Origin: Blastocatellia bacterium
GTDB taxonomy: Bacteria; Acidobacteriota; Blastocatellia; Chloracidobacteriales; JADJPF01
Length of the DNA: 64,000 nucleotides
Direction: 5' to 3'
Assembly (NCBI GenBank): GCA_025057015.1
Contig: JANWYG010000007.1
Coordinates: forward strand, 62,001 to 126,000
The position numbers and the translations under genes were made by a program. Within the stretch, counting starts at the first letter, position 1. Every line of letters begins with the position of its first letter. Positions 13,643 through 40,504 of the stretch are shown piece after piece. The notes below the pieces were generated by a model. It had not been told where the DNA came from. It worked only from the letters and a program-made list of their open reading frames with translations, and made no database searches.

Positions 13643-15925
13643 ATGAAGACGTTGACAAAGATCTGTATACTGGTGCTGCTAATTGAATCTTCAGGTTTGT
13701 GTATAGACTTCGAGATATCAGCTCGTAAATATGTACGTCCGCCTTCGCAAGATTTCTTTGAAACGGTAAAACGCCCCCGCAGGATTTACAACCAACTGTC
13801 TGCAGAGCAGCTAGATCCCCAAAAAGGTCCTGAAATACGTATAGCGCTCGCTATAGATGCTAGCAGCGCAACGGTAACGTCTACCCAGCCGATGATCGCA
13901 TATGCAGCAGAAACGACGAACTTGGTCGGACTAGATACCCTCCAGGCAACAGTAAAACTCGAAGGCGAAAGTAAGAGATCGACGGCGACTTATCGGGTGC
14001 AGGTAAGTGGCTTGCGTAGCCGTAAGGAAGCAGAAGCTGCAGCTAAGAATATACTGCAACAATTTGACGAAAAAATTGAAAAAAATTATGACGACAAACA
14101 AGCAGTCTATAAACTCAAAGTTGGTGAGTACCGTTCTCAACGGGACGCTCAAATAATGCTGGTGCGACTAAAGGACGCTGGCTATAAAGCAGCATCACTG
14201 GTAAGAAGTGATAGCATGTCTTCCGTGTCAGCCATCGTCTTTAGCTCTCAGGGCGAGCGTCTGTTATCTAGTCAGAAGAGCATAACTTTCGTACCAGGTT
14301 CGCCAGGAGCAGTGCTACAGTTTAGCGCTAAAGCCTACCGCGGCAAGATCCAAGTAGTAATCAATCAACGTGGGCGGTTAAACGTGATCAATTTCGTGCA
14401 GATGGAAGACTATTTACGTGGCGTTGTACCTAACGAACTCTCTCCGAAGGCGTTTCCAGAACTAGAAGCACTCAAAGCACAAGCCGTCGCTGCGCGTACC
14501 TATGCTATACATAATCGAGGACAGTTCGCCTCCGAGGGATACGACCTGCTATCAACAGCACTCTCGCAAGTCTACGCCGGCATAGACAGCGAACACCCGC
14601 TGAGCAACAAGGCCGTAGAAGAAACCGAAGGCATAGTAGCTACCTACGGCAGCGAACCGATAAATGCCCTCTACACTTCTACTTGTGGTGGACACACAGA
14701 GTCTTCCGAGAATGTTTTCACGAAAGCCGTTCCTTACCTAGTAGGTGTACCTTGTGTAGTTCAGCGACGCAGCCGCCGAGCTACTGAGAATACCCTGCAA
14801 ACCAAGCGTGAAATGAAGGTCCTTTTAGGAGATTATGGCAGGCCAATGACTCGCGAAGCAGCAATACTTGCCGTACTCGGCTTGCCGCTGCCAGAAAGTA
14901 TAGACGATGAGTATTTGCGACAGCACCCAACACAACGTGAAGTCGCTCGATGGCTTATCCATATAAGCAAGCTACTACATCGCAAAAGTCCAGAACTACC
15001 TGACAATCTTGTCCTATTAGCCGGTTTTGCCGAAGGCCTAGAGCAAGCTGTCTATGGCAGCGAAAGTCCTTCACGACTACTTACCGACGCCGATGCTGAG
15101 TATATACTTGGTAGCGAAGCCGGCAAATTTTCGCCGTCAACGCGCAAAACTATAGCGGCACTAACGAGCGAAGGTATATTAACCGCTGCTCCTGACGGTA
15201 GCTTCAAGGATCGAATAAGCCGAGCCACAGCACTATCTGCAATTTTTCAGTCACTTGCACGGCTCAATTTACCGATGCTACAGACCGGTTCGCTAAGATC
15301 GATTGAAGCAAACCGCCTACGTCTCAAGCTAGCCGATAAAGAAACAGATGTTGAGCTTGGGCACAGGCTCTACCTCTTCCGAGTAATAAAAGAAAGTTAC
15401 TTACCAGCCAGCCTGGTTCGAATAGTGGGCGGTGAGAAGGTAGTCTTCCACAAAGACGACAGCGGACAGATAGACTACCTTGAAGTGCATCTGAACGCTA
15501 ATGGTGCAGCAAACGACCGGTTTTCTATCTATTCCCGGTGGCAGATGCGTTATACAGCCCAAGAGCTTCGTGCCAAGCTCTTAGAAGAGAAAGTAAATGT
15601 CGGTGAAATAATAGACCTTGTACCTGTAAGGTATGGTGTATCGAATCGGATCGTCGAGCTACGTGTCATAGGCTCACAAAAAGAGCAGACGCTCAGCAAG
15701 CTTCGTATCCGCTCAGCCTTGGGACTGCGCGAGAACTTGTTTATAATCGAACGTGAGTACTCGCAAACTGGACAAATTGTTGCATACCACTTCATCGGTC
15801 GCGGCTGGGGACATGGAGTGGGCCTATGTCAGGTAGGAGCTTACGGCCTAGCACGAAAAGGCTTTTCTTACGAAGAGATATTAAAGAGCTACTATAGCGG
15901 CATACAACTCTCGAAGGTATATTGA
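13643..15925 (+). CDS. SPOR-SpoIID/LytB envelope protein with an inserted S-layer-homology-like segment
   Basis: 760 residues, secreted (signal residues 1-20). A SPOR-type repeat (about residues 113-190, YRVQVSGL and YKLKVGEYRS) would bind denuded glycan strands. The SpoIID/LytB domain begins near residue 250 (MEDYLRGVVPNELSP, ALKAQAVAARTYA) and ends at the C-terminus (RGWGHGVGLCQVGAYG). SpoIID enzymes are lytic transglycosylases acting on peptidoglycan. Between the two SpoIID halves is a long insert, including an SLH-like stretch around residues 490-545 (GILTAAPDGSFKDRISRA). It is coupled to the TonB-like and glycosidase-like neighbours, suggesting a wall-remodelling unit. Confidence 0.88.
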   Translation: MKTLTKICILVLLIESSGLCIDFEISARKYVRPPSQDFFETVKRPRRIYNQLSAEQLDPQKGPEIRIALAIDASSATVTSTQPMIAYAAETTNLVGLDTLQATVKLEGESKRSTATYRVQVSGLRSRKEAEAAAKNILQQFDEKIEKNYDDKQAVYKLKVGEYRSQRDAQIMLVRLKDAGYKAASLVRSDSMSSVSAIVFSSQGERLLSSQKSITFVPGSPGAVLQFSAKAYRGKIQVVINQRGRLNVINFVQMEDYLRGVVPNELSPKAFPELEALKAQAVAARTYAIHNRGQFASEGYDLLSTALSQVYAGIDSEHPLSNKAVEETEGIVATYGSEPINALYTSTCGGHTESSENVFTKAVPYLVGVPCVVQRRSRRATENTLQTKREMKVLLGDYGRPMTREAAILAVLGLPLPESIDDEYLRQHPTQREVARWLIHISKLLHRKSPELPDNLVLLAGFAEGLEQAVYGSESPSRLLTDADAEYILGSEAGKFSPSTRKTIAALTSEGILTAAPDGSFKDRISRATALSAIFQSLARLNLPMLQTGSLRSIEANRLRLKLADKETDVELGHRLYLFRVIKESYLPASLVRIVGGEKVVFHKDDSGQIDYLEVHLNANGAANDRFSIYSRWQMRYTAQELRAKLLEEKVNVGEIIDLVPVRYGVSNRIVELRVIGSQKEQTLSKLRIRSALGLRENLFIIEREYSQTGQIVAYHFIGRGWGHGVGLCQVGAYGLARKGFSYEEILKSYYSGIQLSKVY

Positions 15926-28204: not shown

Positions 28205-30340
28205 TTAAGGCCTGTACGGAGCTGCAAGGTACTGAGCTATGACAGCCTGCGCACCATCATAGTCATCACCTGTTTGTGCCGCCTTATTGTATTCAGCTAC
28301 GGCACGGCTACGGTTGCCTAGCGCGTCATAACACTGACCACGTCGAATAAGCGACCAAACCTCCACCCAACGTGGTCGCAAGTCTAACTCTAACGCCTCG
28401 GCAAAAGTATCCAGTGCCTTCTGGTAATTTTTCTGCTCGAAGTAAAGAAGCCCTAAGTTGTACCAAGCCCAAGAGCTGTAGCGGTAGAGCTTTATCGCTT
28501 GCTGAAACTGCTCTTCAGCTTCAGGAAACTCTTCGCGTCGAAAATGTTCTATACCTCGCCTCACTATTGTTGAAACTCGTATCTCATCGGAAATCTTCAG
28601 CAGTTTATTGTCTGGATCGACTATGACATCCTTTGGAAAGCCATTGACCAGCACATTAAAATCAGCGCTTTCTCCATCCATATCTAAGGTGATACGTTCT
28701 GAACCACCTTCATATACCACCTCTAAATCCACCGGCATACGAAATGACTCACTTTGTTGACTAAGAGTACCACGTATTCGATAACCACCAGACCTCGTCT
28801 TAAGTATTTGATAATCAGCATTAAACTCCGGTACGCCCGTAGAATCTACCCACTGGCCAAAAAAATACCGTAGATCGCTACCGTACACCTTGGAAGCCAT
28901 AGCTTCAAAATCGGCTATAGTAGCATGTTTGTTCCGGTACTGCTCGTAAAAGCTTCTGAGTAGCTGCTGAAATTTCTCCTCACCTATTATTAACCGCAGC
29001 ATTCGATAGACAAAAGCGCCTTTATAGAAAACTATCGAGCGATACGCATCCGATTGATCATCTAAGGTTGCAGGAGCACGCTTAATAGAAGCTTGTTGTT
29101 CAAAACCAAGCGCTCGTTCCATATATCCACGCAATTGCTCCTTAAAGACCGCCTCCGGTAGCAAGGTCTCTAGCAGCATCATCGCTGAATACTGTGCCAA
29201 TCCTTGTGACAACCATGCTTCATCAAACGACTTGAGTATCACGGCCTGCCCCCACCACTGGTAGGCAACTTCGCGAGAGATCACTTCGCTTAGTTCAGGC
29301 TCACTCTTCAGCAAATATGTCTTCTCAGCTAGAAGCGTTATGCCAGCTGCAGTATAGAAATCTAACGATTCATTGTCTATTTCTACGAGATAAAGGCGGT
29401 CTCCAAAAGCATACTCACCGAAGCGCTCGACATAAAAACCAAGCGCTCGCGTAGCGACTTCCAAGATTTTGCCAACTATGGCATCATTGCCCGGCTTACG
29501 ATAGAACTCTACCATTACATTCCCAATGGTCGCTTTCTCTACTGTATAACGTCCGAAAGCAAACGTTCCGGGCAACACTGCCTTATCGCTCACAAACTTG
29601 CTTAGAATAAGCTTAGTACCTGGCTGACTTTCAGTAACTACCGTTGAAGTAAAAACTGGTTGTTCAGGAACAGAAAATAGATTTCTGGTTAAGCGCTTCG
29701 CCGATCCTTTGGTCGTTGACTTCTTCTTTGGTGTTTTAGCAGGTGTCTTTGCAGGTGGAGTCTCGGTAGGCACTGCAATAACAGGCGGGCTATACTCGCT
29801 TACTTGCAAGCTACCGAAGCCAATAGCCCTATAGCCTTCCGAGGTTATAAAGGCGATTTCATATGTAGCGGTATCAGAAGCATAGCCGTGGAAAGGAAAC
29901 CACCTGGCTGCATAAGTGAGATATCCGTTTTCAGGACCTATGTACGCTAAACGCTTGTTAGAAAGTACGCCTCCTTCAGGAGATGCAAGCTTGCCTTCAT
30001 AGCTAAATTCGAGGGAAAGTTCTTGTCCTGCTGTAACAAACTCTCCAAAATCTACCCGTACATTCAGAGCTTCAAGCGTGTCCTGTACAAACTGTAGCTC
30101 TCTATCTCCAAGCTTCACTTTAGAGATCTTGAGTGAACCGTTCATCTCAAATACAACTGATCGAGCCGCAGTGAGCATTCGGAAAGTGACTGTGGTAGTT
30201 GCAGACAGCAAGTTACTTTCAGGAGACAGTTCAGCTGTTATCCGGTAGTGCAAAACATCCAGCATATCCTGCTGCTCAGCAGGCACTCGCAAAACGCCAA
30301 AGCCTAGCAGCACGCAGAAAAATAAAGGCAAAAATCGCAT
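28205..30340 (-). CDS. M1-aminopeptidase-fold protein lacking zinc ligands, with C-terminal TPRs
   Basis: 711 residues: signal peptide (1-22), M1-like beta domain, a Pro/Lys/Thr-rich insert (about 192-216), a thermolysin-like catalytic domain and TPR repeats (about 600-700, YRYSSWAWYNLGLLYFEQ). In active M1 enzymes HExxH and a Glu 19 residues later bind zinc. Here the aligned residues are Arg356-Glu-Val-Ala-Tyr360 and Gln379 (AWLSQGLAQY), so all three ligands are replaced, while the flanking QWWGQ, the aligned Glu357 and the downstream FYKGAFV helix remain. The usual GxMEN exopeptidase motif is also absent. It is probably a non-catalytic binding protein. The reading frame is intact, so it is not a pseudogene. 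Confidence 0.87.
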   Translation of the reverse strand: MRFLPLFFCVLLGFGVLRVPAEQQDMLDVLHYRITAELSPESNLLSATTTVTFRMLTAARSVVFEMNGSLKISKVKLGDRELQFVQDTLEALNVRVDFGEFVTAGQELSLEFSYEGKLASPEGGVLSNKRLAYIGPENGYLTYAARWFPFHGYASDTATYEIAFITSEGYRAIGFGSLQVSEYSPPVIAVPTETPPAKTPAKTPKKKSTTKGSAKRLTRNLFSVPEQPVFTSTVVTESQPGTKLILSKFVSDKAVLPGTFAFGRYTVEKATIGNVMVEFYRKPGNDAIVGKILEVATRALGFYVERFGEYAFGDRLYLVEIDNESLDFYTAAGITLLAEKTYLLKSEPELSEVISREVAYQWWGQAVILKSFDEAWLSQGLAQYSAMMLLETLLPEAVFKEQLRGYMERALGFEQQASIKRAPATLDDQSDAYRSIVFYKGAFVYRMLRLIIGEEKFQQLLRSFYEQYRNKHATIADFEAMASKVYGSDLRYFFGQWVDSTGVPEFNADYQILKTRSGGYRIRGTLSQQSESFRMPVDLEVVYEGGSERITLDMDGESADFNVLVNGFPKDVIVDPDNKLLKISDEIRVSTIVRRGIEHFRREEFPEAEEQFQQAIKLYRYSSWAWYNLGLLYFEQKNYQKALDTFAEALELDLRPRWVEVWSLIRRGQCYDALGNRSRAVAEYNKAAQTGDDYDGAQAVIAQYLAAPYRP

Positions 30341-30966: not shown

Positions 30967-31749
30967 ATGAAGCAACTTATTCTGTTGGTTACCTTTTGTA
31001 TGCTTATCCTTTGCTGCAAAACACAACAAGTTCCAGATACCAAAGTTCAAGCTAAAAGATTTTCTTGGGAAGACGTAGACAAAGATGGCTTACCAGACGG
31101 TCTACAGCTTCGAGGTAAGGACCGAGAGAACTTTCTCAAGTGGGTCTGCTTACTGGCAGAATATCAGTTTTATAAACTCAGTCCGCGATGGCAACCCGAG
31201 CAGCGCGATTGTGCAGGCCTCATTCGCTTCGCAATCCGCGAAGCACTAAGACGACATACTAAGAAGTGGCTATATGATATAGGTGCAGACCCATTGCTTG
31301 CTACAGCAGCACCCGATGACCCAGGTCTAGAACTAGAAAAATTGCCCTTAGGAGAAAAAATCTTCCGCACAAAACCTAACCACTTCCAAATGAAAGATCT
31401 ACATGACGGTACGCTGTGCGAATTTGCTGACGCTAGAACCTTACAAGCATATAACTGCGTATTTGTCGGACGCGACGCAACTAGTGCTCGATCCGGCGAC
31501 CTCATCTTTTACTACGACTCATCAGCTATTCCTTCTAGATACCACGTCATGCTGTTTTTAGGACGTCCACACTGGGAAGATGACGGGCACAGCGACTGGG
31601 TAGTTTACCACACAGGGGAAGGTAGCCGCGGTATGGTAAAGAAAGTTAGACTTGCCGAACTAGCACAACACCCAGATAGGCGCTGGCATCCTGTCAAAAA
31701 TAATCCTTGCTTCCTAGGCTTCTTTAGATTGAAAATCGCAAAAGGATAA
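30967..31749 (+). CDS. DUF1175-family lipoprotein, NlpC/P60-like cysteine hydrolase fold
   Basis: 260 residues. The N-terminus is a signal peptide ending LILCCK, a probable lipoprotein site. An acidic EF-hand-like loop follows (DVDKDGLPDG, about residues 36-45). The core resembles NlpC/P60 peptidases: Cys82 in DCAGLIRF, SGDLIFYY, and His193 in YHVMLFLGR. This suggests a peptidoglycan amidase or peptidase, though the family is formally of unknown function. In E. coli the DUF1175 protein YfaT is likewise encoded beside the alpha-2-macroglobulin YfaS, and the same pairing holds here with a 4-nt gap. Confidence 0.75.
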   Translation: MKQLILLVTFCMLILCCKTQQVPDTKVQAKRFSWEDVDKDGLPDGLQLRGKDRENFLKWVCLLAEYQFYKLSPRWQPEQRDCAGLIRFAIREALRRHTKKWLYDIGADPLLATAAPDDPGLELEKLPLGEKIFRTKPNHFQMKDLHDGTLCEFADARTLQAYNCVFVGRDATSARSGDLIFYYDSSAIPSRYHVMLFLGRPHWEDDGHSDWVVYHTGEGSRGMVKKVRLAELAQHPDRRWHPVKNNPCFLGFFRLKIAKG

Positions 31750-31753
31750 AACC

Positions 31754-34700
31754 ATGCGCTACTTACGTATACCTGCCTCCTTCTGCATTATGCTTCTAGC
31801 TGGCGCTCTGACAGTTCTGCTACTAGGTCGAGCACAAGATACCTCTCTTCCAGCACCAGAAACTACGCTGGTACCAGAAGGCGGAAAGATGTTTGCCCTT
31901 TTCTCCAGCCGAACATTCGCAAGCAACGAGTACCCGCGGTTCACCTTGAGTTATAGAGACGTAGATAAATTAGACTTTAGGGTATACAAGATCTCAGATC
32001 CAATCGAGTTCTTCACCAAGCTTCGCAATCTACATCAATCAGGTGAAGAAGATACTCAATCACTCTCACGTCCCCGCTCAGCTCTGGAACGTTTCTCTTA
32101 CTGGAAGTTTACAACGCTTAATACAATAAAGAATTTCATTCGTCGGCAAGTAAACAAAAAGGCGCGTAGCCTCGTAAACAAGACCTTCGGAGACGAGTAT
32201 GTGCTAGCGCGTAGACGTCCCCTAAACCATGCTGATCTACAGAAGATCCCTCTACTTAATGACTACGGCCTAGTAGAAAGCTGGCGAGAAATCCTGCAAG
32301 CAATCACACAAACTAACTATTTGACGATACCCCTTTCCAAAAAAGAACCTGGTGTCTACTTAGTAGAAGCTGCCTGCGATGACTTGCGAGCATACACCCT
32401 GGTATTTGTAACAGACCTGGTAGTTCTCAGCAAAAATTGGAATAGAAAGCTTATCATTTACGTAATCAATAGATACTCTGGTAAACCTATAGAAAATGCC
32501 ACGTTGCAACTGATAACTCCCAAGCGAGACTCGCCATTACGTAGCGTTTTGCTAAGTGGCACAAGCAGTGCCGACGGTAGCTGGCGTGTTGATCTACCTC
32601 AAGATTTTCAAGGCGAAGATTCACTACTACTTGTATCTTCAGGTAAAGATTTCGCCGCTGTAGATGTAGGACGCTCGCTTTACATTTGGGGTGTATCATC
32701 CTATCAACCTCAGTCAGCTTTCTACACCTACACCGATCGACCGGTATACCGTCCGGGACAAACCGTCTACTTCAAGTCAATACTAAGGCAACTGACCGAA
32801 AAAGGGCCTGCTTCAGTTACAGGTCTTGCTGACATAACAGTCACAGACGCTGATGGAAATACCTTCTACCAAACAAGCTTGCCGGTTAGCGATACTGGCA
32901 CGATAAGCGGCAGCTTCACACTAGCAAAGGATGCTGTGCTGGGCAGCTATAACATCAACGTCCAGCTCTCCGGAATGACCGGCTATTACTATTTTCAAGT
33001 CGAAGAGTACAAAAAACCCGAGTATACAGTATCTATATTCTTCCCACAGCGACGCGTCCTGGCCGGAGAAAAAGTAAATGCCGTCATACAAGCAAGGTAC
33101 TACTTTGGAGCACCCGTCGCTCAGGCAGCCGTAGAGTACCGCGTCTACCGCGAGCCATACTATGCCCCTTTTAGCTCAGATGACCCACTGTTACAGTTTA
33201 TACAAGAAGAGCCTCAAGAATATGACTTTCGCTACTACAGCGAACTTGTCACCGAAGGTAAGGGTACACTGGATAAAGAAGGCCAATTAAGAATCAATTT
33301 CGACACAAAACAGACAGTAACAAATCCTGAAGCGGAAGATTTCGGCCAAGAATACAAGTATCGTATCGAAGCAGTAGTGACAGATCTCGCACGCAGAGAC
33401 ATACGTAAAAGCGATTCAATTCCTGCTGTAAATGGCCGATTCGCTCTTCAAACTGCTACCGATAGGTATGTCTACAAACCCAACGAAGAAGCTGAGGTCG
33501 AAGTAACTGCCATAGACCACGACGGTAAGCCAGTAGCTGCTGACTTCAAGTTAATCGCACTACAAGTCAGTTGGCAGAAATCTGCAGACTCTGTCCTTAG
33601 ACAGGTTAAGCAGATAAGCGAGGTCTCCGGCAGAACGGACGCTCATGGAACTACCAAACGACGTATAAAATTACCTGCCGAAGGTGAGATAGAACTTGTA
33701 GCCATAGCCGAAGATTCAAATAGAAAGATCATATCAAATAGATCTCTCATCTGGACAACCTCTGATAACATCTACGACGAATATTACTTTTCCGAGATCA
33801 AGATACTTTCAGATAGAAAATTCTACCGACCTGGTGAAGAAGCAAACATATTACTGCTTCTTCCTGACTCAAAGGCGCATTTGTTTATCTCACTCGAAGG
33901 CCACCGACTGCTACGCGATTGGCAACTCTCTGCAGAAGGTCGCACGGCAAAGCTCAAGATACGTCTAGATAATACATTACTGCCAGAAGGCGTTCCGAAC
34001 GTTTGGCTCAATGTTGCTTATGTAAAAGAAGGCAGAATGATCAGCGGTATGAAGTCTCTAGACGCACCGCCGCTAGAAAAGCTACTCAAAGTAAACATAG
34101 AGACTGATAAGCCAGTATATCAACCCGGAGAAACAGCAGTCTATAAGATCACAACAACAGACCTAGTGGGCGAACCTGTTTCAGCAGAAGTAAGCTTTGG
34201 ATTAGTAGATGAAGCAATCTACGCTATTCAATCAGAGTACTTGCAAAACATAGCAAGCTTCTTCTATAGCCGTATAACTAGTAACGTGCACACTGGATTT
34301 TGCAATGAGTATGATTTTTCTGGTTACAGCAGCAAAGAAGCGTGGAAGCTGGCAGCAGAAAGAAACAACTTAAAACAACGCAAGCCTTTTGCAGCACTTA
34401 AAACACAGCCCAGAATAGATATCAGAAAAAACTTTAAAGACACCGCCTTTTGGTCAGCTAACGTGCAAACCGACGATCAGGGACGCGCAGAGATAAGTGT
34501 TGACCTGCCTGATAACTTGACTACCTGGCGTGCAACAGCTAGAGCCGTAACTTCGGATACCAAAGTAGGCTCCGCAGTTCAAAAAGTCATAGTGAGAAAA
34601 GATCTCTTAGTCAGACTGGCTACTCCTCGATTTTTGACCGAAGGTGACGAAGCTACTATCTCAGCCATAGTACATAACTACCTGAAAACACCTCAAAAAG

Positions 34701-36517
34701 TAACCCTTTCCATACAAACAAGCGGCGTAACGATGACTGAAAGCGCCCGCCTGCTTGAACATAACATAGAGCCTAATGGCCGACAGAGAGTTGATTGGAA
34801 AGTTAAGGCAGACAATGTCACTAACGCAACATTCAAGGTGATTGCCAGCTCTGCAGAAGCCTCGGATGGAGTTGAGCTAACGATACCAGTACTACCGCAT
34901 GGCATACGTATAGGGCATGCCGAATCAGCAGTACTTACTGAAGCAAACTCAACCGCAGAGCTAAAAACCAACATAGGGCAAAATGCTTCGCCTAGCACGA
35001 TACAAATTCGCGTTGACCTTGCTCCGTCAGTTACTGGAGTCGCTCTTGCTGCACTTGACTATCTAACAAGCTACCCTTACGGTTGTGTTGAACAGACTAT
35101 GTCAAGCTTTCTGCCTAACATAGTTGTAGCAAGAGCGCTACGCGCAAACGTCACAAAAGCTGATGAAGCTTCGCTAGACGATAAAGTGAAAAAAGGACTA
35201 GAAAGGCTCTATGATTTTCAACACAAAGACGGCAGTTGGGGTTGGTGGAAAACTGATCCAGCCGACCTTTACATGACAGCATACGTAGTAATAGGGCTCA
35301 CAGAGGCTTCCCGTGCAGGCTACTCAGTTGACCAAGCTGTAATTAAGCGCGCCAGGGACTACATTAAGTCAGAGTTAGACAGTAGCCGCAGCTGGACTGA
35401 TCCCAGAGGTCTAGACGAACGCGTTTATCTGCTGTACGCACTAGCCGTCTCAGGCAGTGAATCAGCTTCACGGCTGAGCCCTTTGCTCAAAGCTGAAAGT
35501 ATGTTACAGCCGTTTAGTAGAGCATTGCTAGCGTTGGCTCTTCTTGAAACTGGCGAACGCGAGAAAGCTATAGAACTTGCGCAAAAGATAGAAGCTACAG
35601 CAACAGGCAATAACCAAGAATCCTACTGGGAGACAATCTCAAAGTTTCCTATAGGCGAAGAGGACCTCTCAGTAGAAGCAACCGCTCTCTCTGTCAAGGT
35701 TCTGGCAAGGCTATTACCCCAAAGCCCAGTATTGGTAAAAGCAGCTCGATGGCTAGTTAACCACCGTCCGAACGGCTATTACTGGCACAGTACCCGCCAG
35801 ACAGCAGCTGCTATCGATGCGCTTGTTGACTATGCCCAAGTTAGCGGTGAGTTAGAAGCAGACTACGATTGGGAAGTGTATATAAATAATCAACAGGTAG
35901 GCACAGGTCACTTCTCCTCTACTGACGCTACCGCTGGCAAGATAATAAGGATAATGGCTGAAAAACCCGTTATAGGCACAAACACCGTCAGAGTAGTAAA
36001 AACAGGACCAGGCACACTAATTGCTTCGCTCAGCTCGGTCTATTTTACTAAGGAAACCGAAGCTAAGCCTACTGGTTCAACAACGCTATCAATTAACCGT
36101 GAATACTTCCTGCTTGACCTAACTACGGATGATCAAGGTCAACCGGTGTTACGCCCCAAGCCACTCAAAGGCGAGCTCAGCGGCGGAGAACTGATCCTAG
36201 TTAGGATAACACTGCAAGGCAAGCCAGCAAGATACTTGATTATAGAAGATCCATTCCCCGCTGGCATGGAACCGTTCACAGACAATGAACCGCCTCCAGG
36301 CGAACTACCACAGATAGAGAGTTTCTATGATCGTAGAGAGTTCAGAGATGACCGCGTCGTATGGTTCTTGACAACTTTTCGAGAAACAACTACCTGGCAA
36401 TACGTCCTTCGATCACAGATACCAGGCAAATTCATAGCTGCACCAGCTCGTGCTGAAAGGATGTACCAACCTCAAATACGCACAAACAGTGCCAGTGCTA
36501 GTTTCACAATAAAATAA
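31754..36517 (+). CDS. Bacterial alpha-2-macroglobulin with thioester
   Basis: 1587 residues, the size expected for the family. N-terminal hydrophobic export signal (about residues 7-26, ending GRAQD, no clear lipobox). A series of MG beta-sandwich domains follows: MG2-like TDRPVYRPGQTVYFKS, and later ETDKPVYQPGETAVYKI. Then comes the alpha-2-macroglobulin core (FWSANVQTDDQGRAEISVDLPD and TTWRATARAVTSDTKVGS) and the thioester domain with Cys1111 in YPYGCVEQT. After bait cleavage these proteins trap proteases covalently through the Cys-Gln thioester, protecting the periplasm. Its stop overlaps the next ATG by one base. It is the central gene of the operon 30967-39830. Confidence 0.95.
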   Translation: MRYLRIPASFCIMLLAGALTVLLLGRAQDTSLPAPETTLVPEGGKMFALFSSRTFASNEYPRFTLSYRDVDKLDFRVYKISDPIEFFTKLRNLHQSGEEDTQSLSRPRSALERFSYWKFTTLNTIKNFIRRQVNKKARSLVNKTFGDEYVLARRRPLNHADLQKIPLLNDYGLVESWREILQAITQTNYLTIPLSKKEPGVYLVEAACDDLRAYTLVFVTDLVVLSKNWNRKLIIYVINRYSGKPIENATLQLITPKRDSPLRSVLLSGTSSADGSWRVDLPQDFQGEDSLLLVSSGKDFAAVDVGRSLYIWGVSSYQPQSAFYTYTDRPVYRPGQTVYFKSILRQLTEKGPASVTGLADITVTDADGNTFYQTSLPVSDTGTISGSFTLAKDAVLGSYNINVQLSGMTGYYYFQVEEYKKPEYTVSIFFPQRRVLAGEKVNAVIQARYYFGAPVAQAAVEYRVYREPYYAPFSSDDPLLQFIQEEPQEYDFRYYSELVTEGKGTLDKEGQLRINFDTKQTVTNPEAEDFGQEYKYRIEAVVTDLARRDIRKSDSIPAVNGRFALQTATDRYVYKPNEEAEVEVTAIDHDGKPVAADFKLIALQVSWQKSADSVLRQVKQISEVSGRTDAHGTTKRRIKLPAEGEIELVAIAEDSNRKIISNRSLIWTTSDNIYDEYYFSEIKILSDRKFYRPGEEANILLLLPDSKAHLFISLEGHRLLRDWQLSAEGRTAKLKIRLDNTLLPEGVPNVWLNVAYVKEGRMISGMKSLDAPPLEKLLKVNIETDKPVYQPGETAVYKITTTDLVGEPVSAEVSFGLVDEAIYAIQSEYLQNIASFFYSRITSNVHTGFCNEYDFSGYSSKEAWKLAAERNNLKQRKPFAALKTQPRIDIRKNFKDTAFWSANVQTDDQGRAEISVDLPDNLTTWRATARAVTSDTKVGSAVQKVIVRKDLLVRLATPRFLTEGDEATISAIVHNYLKTPQKVTLSIQTSGVTMTESARLLEHNIEPNGRQRVDWKVKADNVTNATFKVIASSAEASDGVELTIPVLPHGIRIGHAESAVLTEANSTAELKTNIGQNASPSTIQIRVDLAPSVTGVALAALDYLTSYPYGCVEQTMSSFLPNIVVARALRANVTKADEASLDDKVKKGLERLYDFQHKDGSWGWWKTDPADLYMTAYVVIGLTEASRAGYSVDQAVIKRARDYIKSELDSSRSWTDPRGLDERVYLLYALAVSGSESASRLSPLLKAESMLQPFSRALLALALLETGEREKAIELAQKIEATATGNNQESYWETISKFPIGEEDLSVEATALSVKVLARLLPQSPVLVKAARWLVNHRPNGYYWHSTRQTAAAIDALVDYAQVSGELEADYDWEVYINNQQVGTGHFSSTDATAGKIIRIMAEKPVIGTNTVRVVKTGPGTLIASLSSVYFTKETEAKPTGSTTLSINREYFLLDLTTDDQGQPVLRPKPLKGELSGGELILVRITLQGKPARYLIIEDPFPAGMEPFTDNEPPPGELPQIESFYDRREFRDDRVVWFLTTFRETTTWQYVLRSQIPGKFIAAPARAERMYQPQIRTNSASASFTIK

Positions 36518-37317
36518 TGGTGAGATTTATGAAACAGCAGATAACAACTTTTCTACGAGGCCTGCCACTAATAGTCTTATACGGCATCTGGACAGCTATC
36601 TTTATCCCCTTATGCTACTGGCTACTTTCTATACCAGAAGCTGACTTCACTACGATAGTCATATCCGCCTTGATCTTTACTGCCTGCATGCTCTCCTTCT
36701 TCTCCTTGCAAGGTACAACGATCTACTGGCTAGGATGTGCAGCAGAAGGCCAGGCAAAGTTAAATAGTGTATTCCTAAAAGGAATGCTCAGAAGCCTCTT
36801 CGTCGATGGAGCGAAAGTAGCGTTGCTAGCTGTTCTAATGGCACCTACCTTTTGGCTAGCGATGACGCTCTTTCCGGTCACATCTCCAACACCTAACGCA
36901 GACGCTTTACTAAAGCAACCTTTGACAGGTCAAGTGAAAGTAGAAGAAAAGGCAAGTTCTCGAACACAGTATCCTATAGAGATTGTCCGCAGCGCTCTAT
37001 TGTGGTTCGCTTTGCCGCTTCTTCTTCTACGGTTATGGAGCGAAGCTGTATTAAACGGTCTAGACCGAGCCTTTAAATCTCTACTAGGTAGTGCTTGGAA
37101 TGCCTGGCACCCTAGCATGCTACTTTGGGCTATTCTGCCACTACTACTCGTGCTGGGAGCCCCCGTGCTTTTGTTTTCCATCGAGCTAAAGGTAGAAAAT
37201 GCCTATCTAGCATTGCTGCTATTTACGATTAAGCTGGCAACAGCATGGCTACTGCTAGTACTTGGATGGTTATTTGCGGTAACGCTTACTGTCACTTCAG
37301 TCAAAACCCAATTCTGA
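36517..37317 (+). CDS. Multi-pass membrane protein, unknown family
   Basis: 266 residues with about six hydrophobic helices (roughly 13-37, 45-67, 95-118, 153-175, 200-222 and 230-255) and a polar loop near 120-150. No recognised motif. The ATG at 36517 shares a base with the alpha-2-macroglobulin stop. An ATG at 36529 with GGTGAG upstream is an alternative. Its 3' end overlaps the following fusion gene by 73 nt, an unusually long overlap, so the four genes from 30967 are almost certainly expressed together. Confidence 0.75.
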   Translation: MVRFMKQQITTFLRGLPLIVLYGIWTAIFIPLCYWLLSIPEADFTTIVISALIFTACMLSFFSLQGTTIYWLGCAAEGQAKLNSVFLKGMLRSLFVDGAKVALLAVLMAPTFWLAMTLFPVTSPTPNADALLKQPLTGQVKVEEKASSRTQYPIEIVRSALLWFALPLLLLRLWSEAVLNGLDRAFKSLLGSAWNAWHPSMLLWAILPLLLVLGAPVLLFSIELKVENAYLALLLFTIKLATAWLLLVLGWLFAVTLTVTSVKTQF

Positions 37318-39830
37318 CGCTCCTTCTAGCGCTGCTGCTCGCGCTTTGCTGTAAGTTACCAGACGAACCGCCGGCTACCGCACATCAGAAAAACTCCGTT
37401 TCGCAAGATAACCTACAAGCTATCGTTGCTAAAGCTATGGATAACCGTAGCGGAGCCGTGGTAGTCATGGATGCCGACGGCAACATTCTGAGTCTTTATA
37501 ATAAAGACCTAGCTGACAGGGATTTTCCCCTTGGGTCTATAGTCAAGCCGTTCATCGCAAAATCCATAACTGAAAGAAAGTACCTTTGTCGGGGAAAGTA
37601 TGGTCGCATACTATGTACGCATCCTAAGCAAACCGCACCAATCAGCTTGGCGCAAGCAATAGCAATTTCTTGTAACGGCTATTTTGCATCGCTTGCTGAA
37701 GAACTTGACTTGCGATCAATTGAACAATCATTACGTAAATACGGCTTCGGTAACGGCCACCTGTTGCCAGGAAAACAAAAGGAAGATTTCTTCATCGGTG
37801 AAGGCGGAACCGTAACCCTGTCTCCAATTGCGTTGACTAGAGCAATGCTTACGCTGGCTTTAAATCATCCTCCAGCTACCTATACCAATCACGATCTAGA
37901 CCTGCCTCAAGAAATACTCGAAGGCCTGCGAGGTTGCATAGAATATGGCACTGCAGCAAACAACGATTGGAAGTCACTCCCGCAAGATTTAATGGTTATC
38001 GGTAAAACCGGCTCTCCTACTATCCCCGATGACGTAATCACACACGGCTGGTTTAGCGCAGTAGTATGCAGGAAAGGCACAGCAGACTTTGCCGTCACTG
38101 TCTTTCTGAAAGCTGGACGCGGTAGCGAAGCTGCTGCTATAGCCGCAGACGTAATTACTAAGTTCATTCAGTCAGCCTCTGTCACTGCAGAAAGCAACGA
38201 CGAAATCAGTGTGGCCGTCTTTTCCTCGCTCCAACCTAAGAGCGCAAACTTTAGTGCCAAGCAGCTAAAACTAAGAGACTTTCAAAACAGATGCTTAGCT
38301 ACGACAACTCAGGTTACCTTATCCGTAGTAGGAGCTGACAAGTTAGTTGCCCGCATTGCAGAAGGTGTAGAAATTCCAGCCGTACAGCTACACCTGGAAG
38401 CAGAGCATCTGCGGATAAGGATCGAAGGCGCTGCAGAACGTTTCTACTCTACAGGCATGTTTACTCTTCGGCTAGACAGAGAAAGCCGCTCGATACTCAT
38501 AATCGAGCACACCAAGTTGGAAAGCTATGTAGCAAGTGTCGTTTCGACTGAGATACCAGAAGAAACTGAACCAGAAGCGCTCAAGGCACAAGCCGTAGTG
38601 GCAAGAAGTTATGCTGTTGCCTCTCCACCCAGACACAAAGGATACCGTTTCTGTGACTCTACGCACTGCCAAAGATATGTAGGTCAAGCAGCTGTAGCAG
38701 CAATGAAAGCAGCAAAAGAGACCGCCGGTGAATACCTAATCGATCAAGGCAATAGACCTGTACAAGCTCTCTATCATGCCTGTTGTGGAGGAAAGCTTCT
38801 TACAGCTAACCGGGTATGGAAGGCAAGTAGTGAACCTTCTAAACTATGCGGCTACTGTAAAGGCCATCCTTGGCAACGCAAGATACCAAGAAGTCAGCTA
38901 CTGTCAATACTCGGCAGGCACCTAGGTATAGAAGTAAAAAACACGCAACTAGTGCTAGACGAAAACAATGCCTGTTTGCGTCTAGAACTCTCCACTTCGG
39001 AAGGGAAACGAATCTTGCCCTGCGGTATCTTACTAGAACTCTTAGCTGACTGCCCTTCTCTACCCACAGAACTACGTTTGATTAACGAAACGGTCTTAAT
39101 AGCCGGTAAAGGCCTTGGTCATTGCGTTGGACTGTGTCAACACGCTGCACACACCATGGCCAAACAAGGTCGAAGTTACAGCGAGATACTCAGCAACTTT
39201 CTGCCCGATCTACGCCTAAGTAGGGCTATTCTTACTAGACCTGTCGGTAACTTACAAGAAAAATCCACTGTATATGAAATAGAAAATCTGTCGATAAGTT
39301 TCTTTGCACCAAACACGATAGTAGAAGCAAAAGAAGTAGCTTCGATAGCGCTACGCGCAGCTGCACAATTAGGCAAGAATGCCCCAGGACTGCGCTTTGA
39401 GTTCGTGCTACACGGCAGTACAGCCAGCTTCTGCTCTGTTACAGGACAAGGTGGTGACGTAGCAGCAGTCACTGTAGGCACTAAGATTCATCTTCAGCCG
39501 CTACACCTCTGCCGACTAGGGTCACTGCGCGAACTGGTTCGGCACGAGATGGCTCATGTTGCTATAGACCATGTCGGCGGAAAATCCGTAGCACGCTGGC
39601 TCCATGAAGGTTATGCAACAATCTTTGCAGGCGAAAAGTATACCTCCGTCAGACCAACTGCCGATCTGGAATGCAGATTGGTACGCGCAAGAAGTAACGA
39701 AGAGCGAAGACAATTGTACGCTGAAGCAGCAACCAAAGTAGCTGAACTGCTTGCAAAAACAGGTGAAAGAGCTCTCTGGCAAGCTCTTGCTGCAGGACGC
39801 TTTCGTTCCCAAGGCTGCAACTCTAACTAA
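37245..39830 (+). CDS. PBP-like transpeptidase / SpoIID / HExxH zinc-peptidase fusion
   Basis: 861 residues. A hydrophobic signal ends LALCCK (residues 33-37), a likely lipoprotein site. Domain 1 (about 50-310) shows penicillin-binding-protein motifs in order: Ser98-I-V-Lys101 (SxxK), Ser142-C-Asn144 (SxN) and Lys254-Thr-Gly256 (KTG). Domain 2 (about 360-665) is SpoIID/LytB: YVASVVSTEIPEE, ALKAQAVVARSYAV and the closing GKGLGHCVGLCQHAAH. Domain 3 (about 675-861) is a gluzincin-type peptidase with His767-Glu-Met-Ala-His771 and probable third ligand Glu788 in LHEGYA. The protein could cross-link, cut glycan and cut protein. Start uncertain (ATG 37245, or ATG 37266), neither with a good Shine-Dalgarno. 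Confidence 0.82.
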   Translation: MATASTWMVICGNAYCHFSQNPILTLLLALLLALCCKLPDEPPATAHQKNSVSQDNLQAIVAKAMDNRSGAVVVMDADGNILSLYNKDLADRDFPLGSIVKPFIAKSITERKYLCRGKYGRILCTHPKQTAPISLAQAIAISCNGYFASLAEELDLRSIEQSLRKYGFGNGHLLPGKQKEDFFIGEGGTVTLSPIALTRAMLTLALNHPPATYTNHDLDLPQEILEGLRGCIEYGTAANNDWKSLPQDLMVIGKTGSPTIPDDVITHGWFSAVVCRKGTADFAVTVFLKAGRGSEAAAIAADVITKFIQSASVTAESNDEISVAVFSSLQPKSANFSAKQLKLRDFQNRCLATTTQVTLSVVGADKLVARIAEGVEIPAVQLHLEAEHLRIRIEGAAERFYSTGMFTLRLDRESRSILIIEHTKLESYVASVVSTEIPEETEPEALKAQAVVARSYAVASPPRHKGYRFCDSTHCQRYVGQAAVAAMKAAKETAGEYLIDQGNRPVQALYHACCGGKLLTANRVWKASSEPSKLCGYCKGHPWQRKIPRSQLLSILGRHLGIEVKNTQLVLDENNACLRLELSTSEGKRILPCGILLELLADCPSLPTELRLINETVLIAGKGLGHCVGLCQHAAHTMAKQGRSYSEILSNFLPDLRLSRAILTRPVGNLQEKSTVYEIENLSISFFAPNTIVEAKEVASIALRAAAQLGKNAPGLRFEFVLHGSTASFCSVTGQGGDVAAVTVGTKIHLQPLHLCRLGSLRELVRHEMAHVAIDHVGGKSVARWLHEGYATIFAGEKYTSVRPTADLECRLVRARSNEERRQLYAEAATKVAELLAKTGERALWQALAAGRFRSQGCNSN

Positions 39831-39838
39831 GTAGATCG

Positions 39839-39867
39839 TTGACAGACACATAATATTCGCTTATTTT
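39839..39867 (+). promoter_or_regulatory. Promoter of lexA
   Basis: TTGACA (39839-39844), 17-nt spacer, TATTTT (39862-39867). The predicted start is near 39874, followed by AAGGAG at 39884-39889, 9 nt before the ATG. I could not pick out a convincing LexA box overlapping it. Confidence 0.6.
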
Positions 39868-39898: not shown

Positions 39899-40504
39899 AT
39901 GTCTGTGCTATCAGAAAAGCAGCAACAAGTCTATGAGTTCATCGTCGAGTTTGTACGAACCAGAGGACATTCACCCAAGATAAAGGATATATCAAAGCGA
40001 TTTGGATTCTCCTCCCCGGCAACAGTACACAAGTACCTAGTAGCCTTAGAGAAAGCGGGCTACATCGTCAGAGGTAAGAGAAATGCCCTAGTCAAGCTGC
40101 TTTCTTCACCAACTACTTTTGCGGAGTCTGTAGAAGTACCTTTGCTCGGAAGGATAGCTGCCGGTAAACCTATTGATGAAAGCCTAAACGGCAAGTTCGT
40201 TGCTATTCCAAAAGAGCTACTTGGTTGCGGGCAGACTTACGCGCTAAAAGTAGTAGGTGACTCCATGATAGACGAGCATATTACTGACGGTGACCTCATA
40301 ATAGTTGAACATAAAGAAACCGCCAGCAACGGTGAAACAATAGTAGCCATCGTCGAAAATCTCGGAGCTACGGTTAAAAAATTCTATTTCGACAAAGGTA
40401 AGGTGAGACTACAACCGGCAAATCCAAACTACAAACCGCTCTTGCTAGAACCAGAAAAAGTCCAGGTGCAAGGAAGAGTAATAGGAGTAATAAGAAAGTA
40501 CTGA
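39899..40504 (+). CDS. lexA: LexA repressor
   Basis: SOS-response repressor with latent self-cleaving protease. 201 residues. The N-terminal winged helix covers residues 1-68 (IKDISKRFGFSSPATVHKYL). The cleavage site is Ala88-Gly89 in GRIAAGKP, the catalytic Ser122 is in GDSMID and the catalytic Lys160 is in ATVKKFY, all intact. The recognition helix differs from the E. coli type, so its operator should differ too. It is followed by the inverted repeat at 40511-40620. Confidence 0.96.
   Translation: MSVLSEKQQQVYEFIVEFVRTRGHSPKIKDISKRFGFSSPATVHKYLVALEKAGYIVRGKRNALVKLLSSPTTFAESVEVPLLGRIAAGKPIDESLNGKFVAIPKELLGCGQTYALKVVGDSMIDEHITDGDLIIVEHKETASNGETIVAIVENLGATVKKFYFDKGKVRLQPANPNYKPLLLEPEKVQVQGRVIGVIRKY

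Follow-up and report, generated by a model that had tools for sequence, protein, structure and literature searches.

In the window, the 64,000-nucleotide stretch of Blastocatellia DNA analysed here, four consecutive genes very probably represent the Acidobacteriota form of the yfa/mag-type module (Table 1). At the sequence level the best explanation is that the DUF1175 protein corresponds to YfaT/MagC, the α2-macroglobulin (A2M) to YfaS/MagD and the terminal fusion to YfaQ. The module would likely serve in periplasmic protection of the cell wall against hostile effectors, a role in keeping with a published study of the mag operon (PMC12663445). This paper, PMC5764988, PMC10318531 and PMC12282094 are cited throughout for the parts of their text available to us.

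Table 1. Genes of the module in the window and domains of the fusion.
Feature	Position	Strand	Description
DUF1175 protein	30967..31749	+	MagC-like, NlpC/P60-fold protein with signal peptide; predicted YfaT/MagC counterpart
A2M	31754..36517	+	Thioester motif PYGCVEQTM; YfaS side of the A2M tree
Polytopic membrane protein	36517..37317	+	Six predicted transmembrane helices; nameless family; 266 aa
Fusion	37245..39830	+	Transpeptidase–SpoIID–HExxH; predicted YfaQ counterpart
Fusion, N-terminal domain	aa 60-307		PBP2-like D,D-transpeptidase
Fusion, middle domain	aa 419-658		SpoIID-type lytic transglycosylase
Fusion, C-terminal domain	aa 717-847		Gluzincin-like metallopeptidase (GZ)

All four genes are read from one strand. 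A 4-nt gap separates DUF1175 from A2M, the A2M and membrane protein genes overlap by 1 nt, and the latter overlaps the fusion by 73 nt, or by 52 nt if the fusion starts at the alternative in-frame ATG at 37266 rather than at 37245. The four-gene layout, coordinates, gap and overlaps given by the first-pass annotation proved exact on recheck; its thioester A2M was recovered in the protein together with bait- and TED-type Pfam domains, and its PBP/SpoIID/HExxH fusion with Pfam Transpeptidase and SpoIID matches and a HEMAH motif. Downstream of the fusion, after a gap of 68 nt, lies lexA (39899-40504), preceded by a promoter-like site at 39839-39867 that, by consensus match only, is lexA's own. 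Upstream of the module, the opposite strand encodes a protein that combines an M1-type peptidase domain with TPR repeats (28205-30340). Across the whole genome there are three A2M and two SpoIID matches, the second SpoIID-domain protein being 760 aa long (13643-15925).

The module recurs within the phylum, and its conservation is far above chance. DUF1175 is present in 37 of the 297 Acidobacteriota genomes drawn; we read the regions of 25 of them, the window's own included, plus 65 further loci, all from Acidobacteriota except one from Candidatus Zymogenus. Removal of seven loci that we judged to be duplicates, and of L128, which has no DUF1175 ORF of 90 aa, left 82 loci for the counts. An A2M lies immediately 3' of DUF1175 in 77 of the 78 loci that extend 1 kb or more downstream; in the remaining one, L115, an overlong A2M ORF runs across DUF1175. 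The CXEQ thioester motif is found in the A2M of 59 of the 60 loci with at least 5.5 kb downstream, L114 carrying an A2M ORF without it. Where 9 kb or more of downstream sequence is available (52 distinct DUF1175 loci), all three wall-enzyme domains are encoded in 48 (35 fused, 13 split); L042, L053 and L109 have none, and L116 has a partial set at the locus edge. In L042 and L053, the DUF1175-positive cases checked genome-wide, the wall enzyme is encoded elsewhere in the genome. The domains are co-retained despite fusion, splitting or reordering, and the wall-enzyme motifs are strongly conserved across the fusion family. One family (f27: L055, L056, L059-L062) shows a domain permutation in the order transpeptidase, metallopeptidase, SpoIID (TP-GZ-SP), fused in L056 and divided between two genes in the others. 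In Terriglobus albidus the wall-enzyme genes of the locus are read from the other strand. The neighbourhood survey proposed in the first-pass annotation thus finds the arrangement recurrent, its operon-like pairing of A2M with wall enzymes holds, and confinement of the module to one genome is ruled out by the adjacency and wall-domain counts.

The DUF1175 protein matches Pfam PF06672 (E=1.5e-56) and the MagC structure (PDB 7bk8, E=1.3e-19), in addition to an NlpC/P60 match below threshold (E=0.012). Of a putative NlpC/P60-type Cys-His-His site, Cys82 and His193 are invariant in 22 of 22 aligned sequences and His215 is kept in at least 90%. DUF1175/MagC has been described as inactive and peptidoglycan-binding (PMC10318531). 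The protein had been annotated as a DUF1175/NlpC-P60-like lipoprotein, of which the DUF1175 assignment stands and the lipoprotein label is weakened: its signal peptide, like that of one further module protein, ends in LCC and has no canonical lipobox, which does occur in some relatives.

The window A2M comprises the Pfam domains MG2, A2M_BRD, A2M, TED and bMG10. A2M_BRD matches occur in 163 of the 297 genomes, including all 37 with DUF1175. Twenty A2M loci free of DUF1175 were fetched from the phylum; 14 of them include a PBP1C-like neighbour, and SpoIID and GZ are absent from all 20. A quick tree of 31 A2Ms, with long branches, without L058 and with MagD not among them, is divided into two groups at 100% SH-aLRT. 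One group holds the PBP1C-linked A2Ms, E. coli YfhM and two unlinked A2Ms; the other, with the window A2M, holds the DUF1175-linked A2Ms, Citrobacter YfaS and two unlinked A2Ms, one of which belongs to the present genome (L057). A topology test rejected the placement of YfaS in the PBP1C group (p-AU 8e-74) but not that with the DUF1175 group (0.19). This genome encodes two more A2Ms with a thioester motif, L057 (6288-12092, GCTEQ) and L058 (5889-11090, GCFEQ); the 20 kb fetched for each show no neighbouring gene of the PBP1C-like or wall-enzyme kind.

By gene context as well, the window module differs from the type I A2Ms, which adjoin PBP1C: the PBP1C (TIGR02073) matches of this genome are all below the cut-off, and no A2M gene has one next to it. 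Its DUF1175 gene adjoins the A2M, as in the yfa and mag clusters. Counterparts of YfaA/DUF2138 and YfaP/DUF2135, which these clusters also contain, were found neither in the window nor in 24 other DUF1175 loci by phmmer with the E. coli proteins at E<=1e-3. A type II A2M has no CXEQ, whereas the window A2M has CVEQ. CXEQ is missing from YfaS of Citrobacter and from the fragment examined of the E. coli protein, so the thioester was either retained by Acidobacteriota and lost from Enterobacteria or regained; on the sequences compared we favour the former. That A2Ms of the mag/yfa lineage retain the thioester looks new and goes against the rule that mag-type A2Ms have none. A complete yfa cluster is also carried by a Citrobacter portucalensis plasmid typed as mobilizable (NZ_CP134684.1; L129 1028-10363).

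The fusion matches Pfam Transpeptidase (5.5e-8) and SpoIID (8.3e-22) and NCBIfam TIGR02669 (SpoIID, 3.3e-41). Its transpeptidase motifs are GSIVK, SCN and KTG, followed by STEIP and by HEMAHVAIDH...WLHEG of the metallopeptidase. The SxxK, SxN and KTG motifs on a PBP fold predict a class B PBP, and the 50 Foldseek matches listed for the full model (pLDDT 70.5, 27 sequences) are all PBPs, with the class B PBPs PBP2/PBP3 at the top. The family profile and a Glu at position 436, kept in at least 90% of 27 sequences and presumably the catalytic Glu of the SpoIID domain, make the middle domain a putative lytic transglycosylase. The Pfam scan detected no glycosyltransferase domain.

As judged from these motifs and their order, the fusion is the counterpart of YfaQ. 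In E. coli, yfaQ lies directly 3' of yfaS and its product matches SpoIID; the two proteins align around SxxK and the SpoIID Glu region, and by the motif HEYLH in YfaQ, so that the transpeptidase, SpoIID and C-terminal HExxH follow one plan. The Acidobacteriota SpoIID profile scores 67.8 bits against E. coli YfaQ, and the transpeptidase profile 16.3 bits against its N-terminal part and 21.0 against Citrobacter YfaQ, compared with 5.0 bits for the best reported shuffle of the E. coli N-terminal part. The metallopeptidase profile gave no significant score against the C-terminal parts (2.5 bits in E. coli and 4.7 in Citrobacter; shuffle maxima 2.9 and 5.7), the likeness here being one of motif and position. 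Whole-profile hhalign aligned the SpoIID part only. Cut into domains, the profiles gave weak like-to-like matches for transpeptidase (0.008) and metallopeptidase (0.012); SpoIID matched the C-terminal YfaQ piece at 0.00027, we think because the cut left a SpoIID tail in it. DUF2300 (PF10062), the Pfam model for YfaQ, gives no match in the fusion itself and, above the curated cut-off, none in the 297 genomes, where weak matches are scattered.

A further likeness is a pair of cysteines after SxxK, followed by SC[N/G], which is common to both YfaQ proteins and to 57 of 59 ORFs of the fusion family. These 59 remain from 63 transpeptidase ORFs, with six loci represented twice, after four unrelated PBPs far from A2M (L071, L085, L087, L098) were removed by hand; of the two exceptions, L101 lacks GS..K and in L078 the search pattern was anchored at the wrong place, and in three of the 57 the SCN is without the usual next aromatic residue. 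E. coli MrdA, a protein free of cysteine, does not have the signature, and inspection of four PBP1C stretches did not reveal it. YfaQ was already called transpeptidase-like and SpoIID-like in 2025, and was proposed to act on peptidoglycan (PMC12282094); the terms metallo, HExxH, zinc, peptidase and alpha-2 do not occur in the main text of that paper, as available. A YfaQ counterpart with complete catalytic motifs looks new.

The distribution of the C-terminal domain bears on how the fusion relates to the module. In a GZ profile of 30 aligned sequences of 59 found, the catalytic H, E, H and E (HExxH...E) are invariant in 30 of 30. At E<=1e-20, a cut-off picked after viewing the table, it matches 36 of 37 DUF1175-positive and 10 of 260 DUF1175-negative genomes, a contrast that is inflated because the profile was drawn from DUF1175-linked loci; at E<=0.001, weaker matches to general HExxH proteins extend to 214 of the 297 genomes. 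In all ten DUF1175-negative genomes (L150-L159) the match is a SpoIID-GZ protein without transpeptidase, and the 11-20 kb fetched per locus hold no A2M, DUF1175 or transpeptidase. This 10/10 absence points to a transpeptidase tied to the A2M/DUF1175 module, an association that looks new.

The 266-aa membrane protein has no Pfam or NCBIfam family match. Its six predicted transmembrane helices were modelled with a pLDDT of 78.5, and a search of PDB structures returned 0 matches at E<=0.001, which rules out a known fold at that threshold. In 41 of 57 loci the A2M is followed within 600 nt by an ORF predicted to have five or more transmembrane segments; a limit of 3.5 kb raises this to 43. The family, without known match, looks new. 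By analogy with Pseudomonas, where the Mag complex sits at the inner membrane with MagB as its anchor (PMC5764988), the protein may be the inner-membrane anchor.

The wall-protection reading draws on the mag-operon literature (PMC12663445, PMC5764988, PMC10318531) and on domain content, from which we infer the order of events. In P. aeruginosa, magD protects against VgrG3, to a limited extent against Tae1 and not against TseH; VgrG3 and Tae1 are peptidoglycan-targeting T6SS effectors, and the available text gives no mechanism for the protection (PMC12663445). We propose a complex at the inner membrane that the DUF1175 protein would tie to peptidoglycan. An incoming protein that cuts the A2M bait would be covalently bound by the intact thioester. 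The fusion would then repair the wall by "cut and patch", its SpoIID domain trimming damaged glycan and its transpeptidase re-crosslinking, while the metallopeptidase might clear or process proteins at the site. We give this trap-and-mend sequence an even chance.

The same genes could instead form a housekeeping envelope module, in which A2M and DUF1175 are a scaffold for a shape-setting wall-remodelling enzyme and defence is secondary. Consistently wider cells upon yfaQ deletion, with a profile like those of mepK, mepS and nlpI deletions (PMC12282094), speak for it, as does the strong conservation of the wall-enzyme motifs. However, the module is patchy, at 37 of 297 genomes, the near-universal thioester would be needless for a mere scaffold, and loss of mag leads to T6SS sensitivity (PMC12663445), so that we hold a primarily housekeeping role to be unlikely, at perhaps half the weight of trap and mend. 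A smaller chance falls to the fusion metallopeptidase acting on the A2M as its maturation or trigger protease, nicking the bait upon wall damage and so arming the thioester. The invariant HExxH...E would suit such a protease, and MagD is seen in 165- and 100-kDa forms that change upon deletion of magE, which has the operon position of yfaQ (PMC5764988). But the MagE–YfaQ equivalence rests on gene order and not on sequence, the 100-kDa form depends on MagB (PMC5764988), and SpoIID-GZ proteins occur with no A2M nearby. Against trap and mend, MagE itself is reported as a cytoplasmic protein and not a stable member of the complex (PMC5764988).

The origin suggested by the first-pass annotation, a merger of the PBP1C and DUF1175 contexts in which a DUF1175 cluster took in a PBP1C-type thioester A2M and the fusion came to stand in for PBP1C as wall partner, would explain why a thioester A2M has both DUF1175 and a transpeptidase-bearing protein as neighbours. 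The A2M tree and topology test place the window A2M opposite the PBP1C/YfhM group, and PBP1C pairs still exist separately in the phylum; nor is the wall enzyme a replacement, because the classical yfa cluster already holds the transpeptidase/SpoIID protein YfaQ on the same plan. Replacement of PBP1C is thereby largely refuted, and we regard this origin as highly improbable. Returning to the wall-protection reading, a bolder and rather speculative version, marginally less credible than the trigger protease, would be a covalent trap gated by wall damage: the fusion would sense and mend peptidoglycan damage, its own metallopeptidase nicking the bait at damaged sites only and the thioester seizing the wall-attacker around a six-helix membrane hub. 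Mag-type A2Ms would then trap wall-targeting effectors rather than proteases, and the Acidobacteriota thioester form would be ancestral.

The literature searched, mostly outside subscription journals, gave no description of a thioester-bearing mag operon in Acidobacteriota, and the protection by the mag operon (PMC12663445) and the peptidoglycan role of YfaQ (PMC12282094) are not linked in the available text of either paper. The Acidobacteriota loci join A2M, DUF1175 and a transpeptidase, lytic transglycosylase and metallopeptidase across fusions, splits and reorderings. With complete catalytic motifs and a kept thioester in these joined loci, the trap-and-mend idea becomes directly testable; this soil-bacterium version of a known "immune-like" operon offers a route to testing how the family protects the cell wall.

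Compared with known systems, the SpoIID-gluzincin proteins of DUF1175-free Acidobacteriota share strong SpoIID and GZ matches with the fusion but are without its transpeptidase, and without A2M or DUF1175 in the ten stretches. The yfhM-pbpC pair (ECAM/type I A2M and PBP1C) likewise places a thioester A2M beside a transpeptidase-domain protein; however, its A2M is of another clade, it has no DUF1175, and the glycosyltransferase domain is a further point of difference from the fusion. P. aeruginosa magABCDEF resembles the window in that DUF1175 (MagC) adjoins an A2M in a multi-gene operon, whereas MagD, a type II A2M, is without CXEQ (PMC5764988). Compared to the E. coli cluster yfaA-yfaT-yfaS-yfaQ-yfaP, the window has an extra six-helix membrane protein gene, the thioester that Citrobacter YfaS and the E. 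coli fragment lack, and SCN and KTG in place of SCG and KTW of YfaQ. Nevertheless, both run from DUF1175 through A2M to a transpeptidase/SpoIID protein with a C-terminal HExxH.
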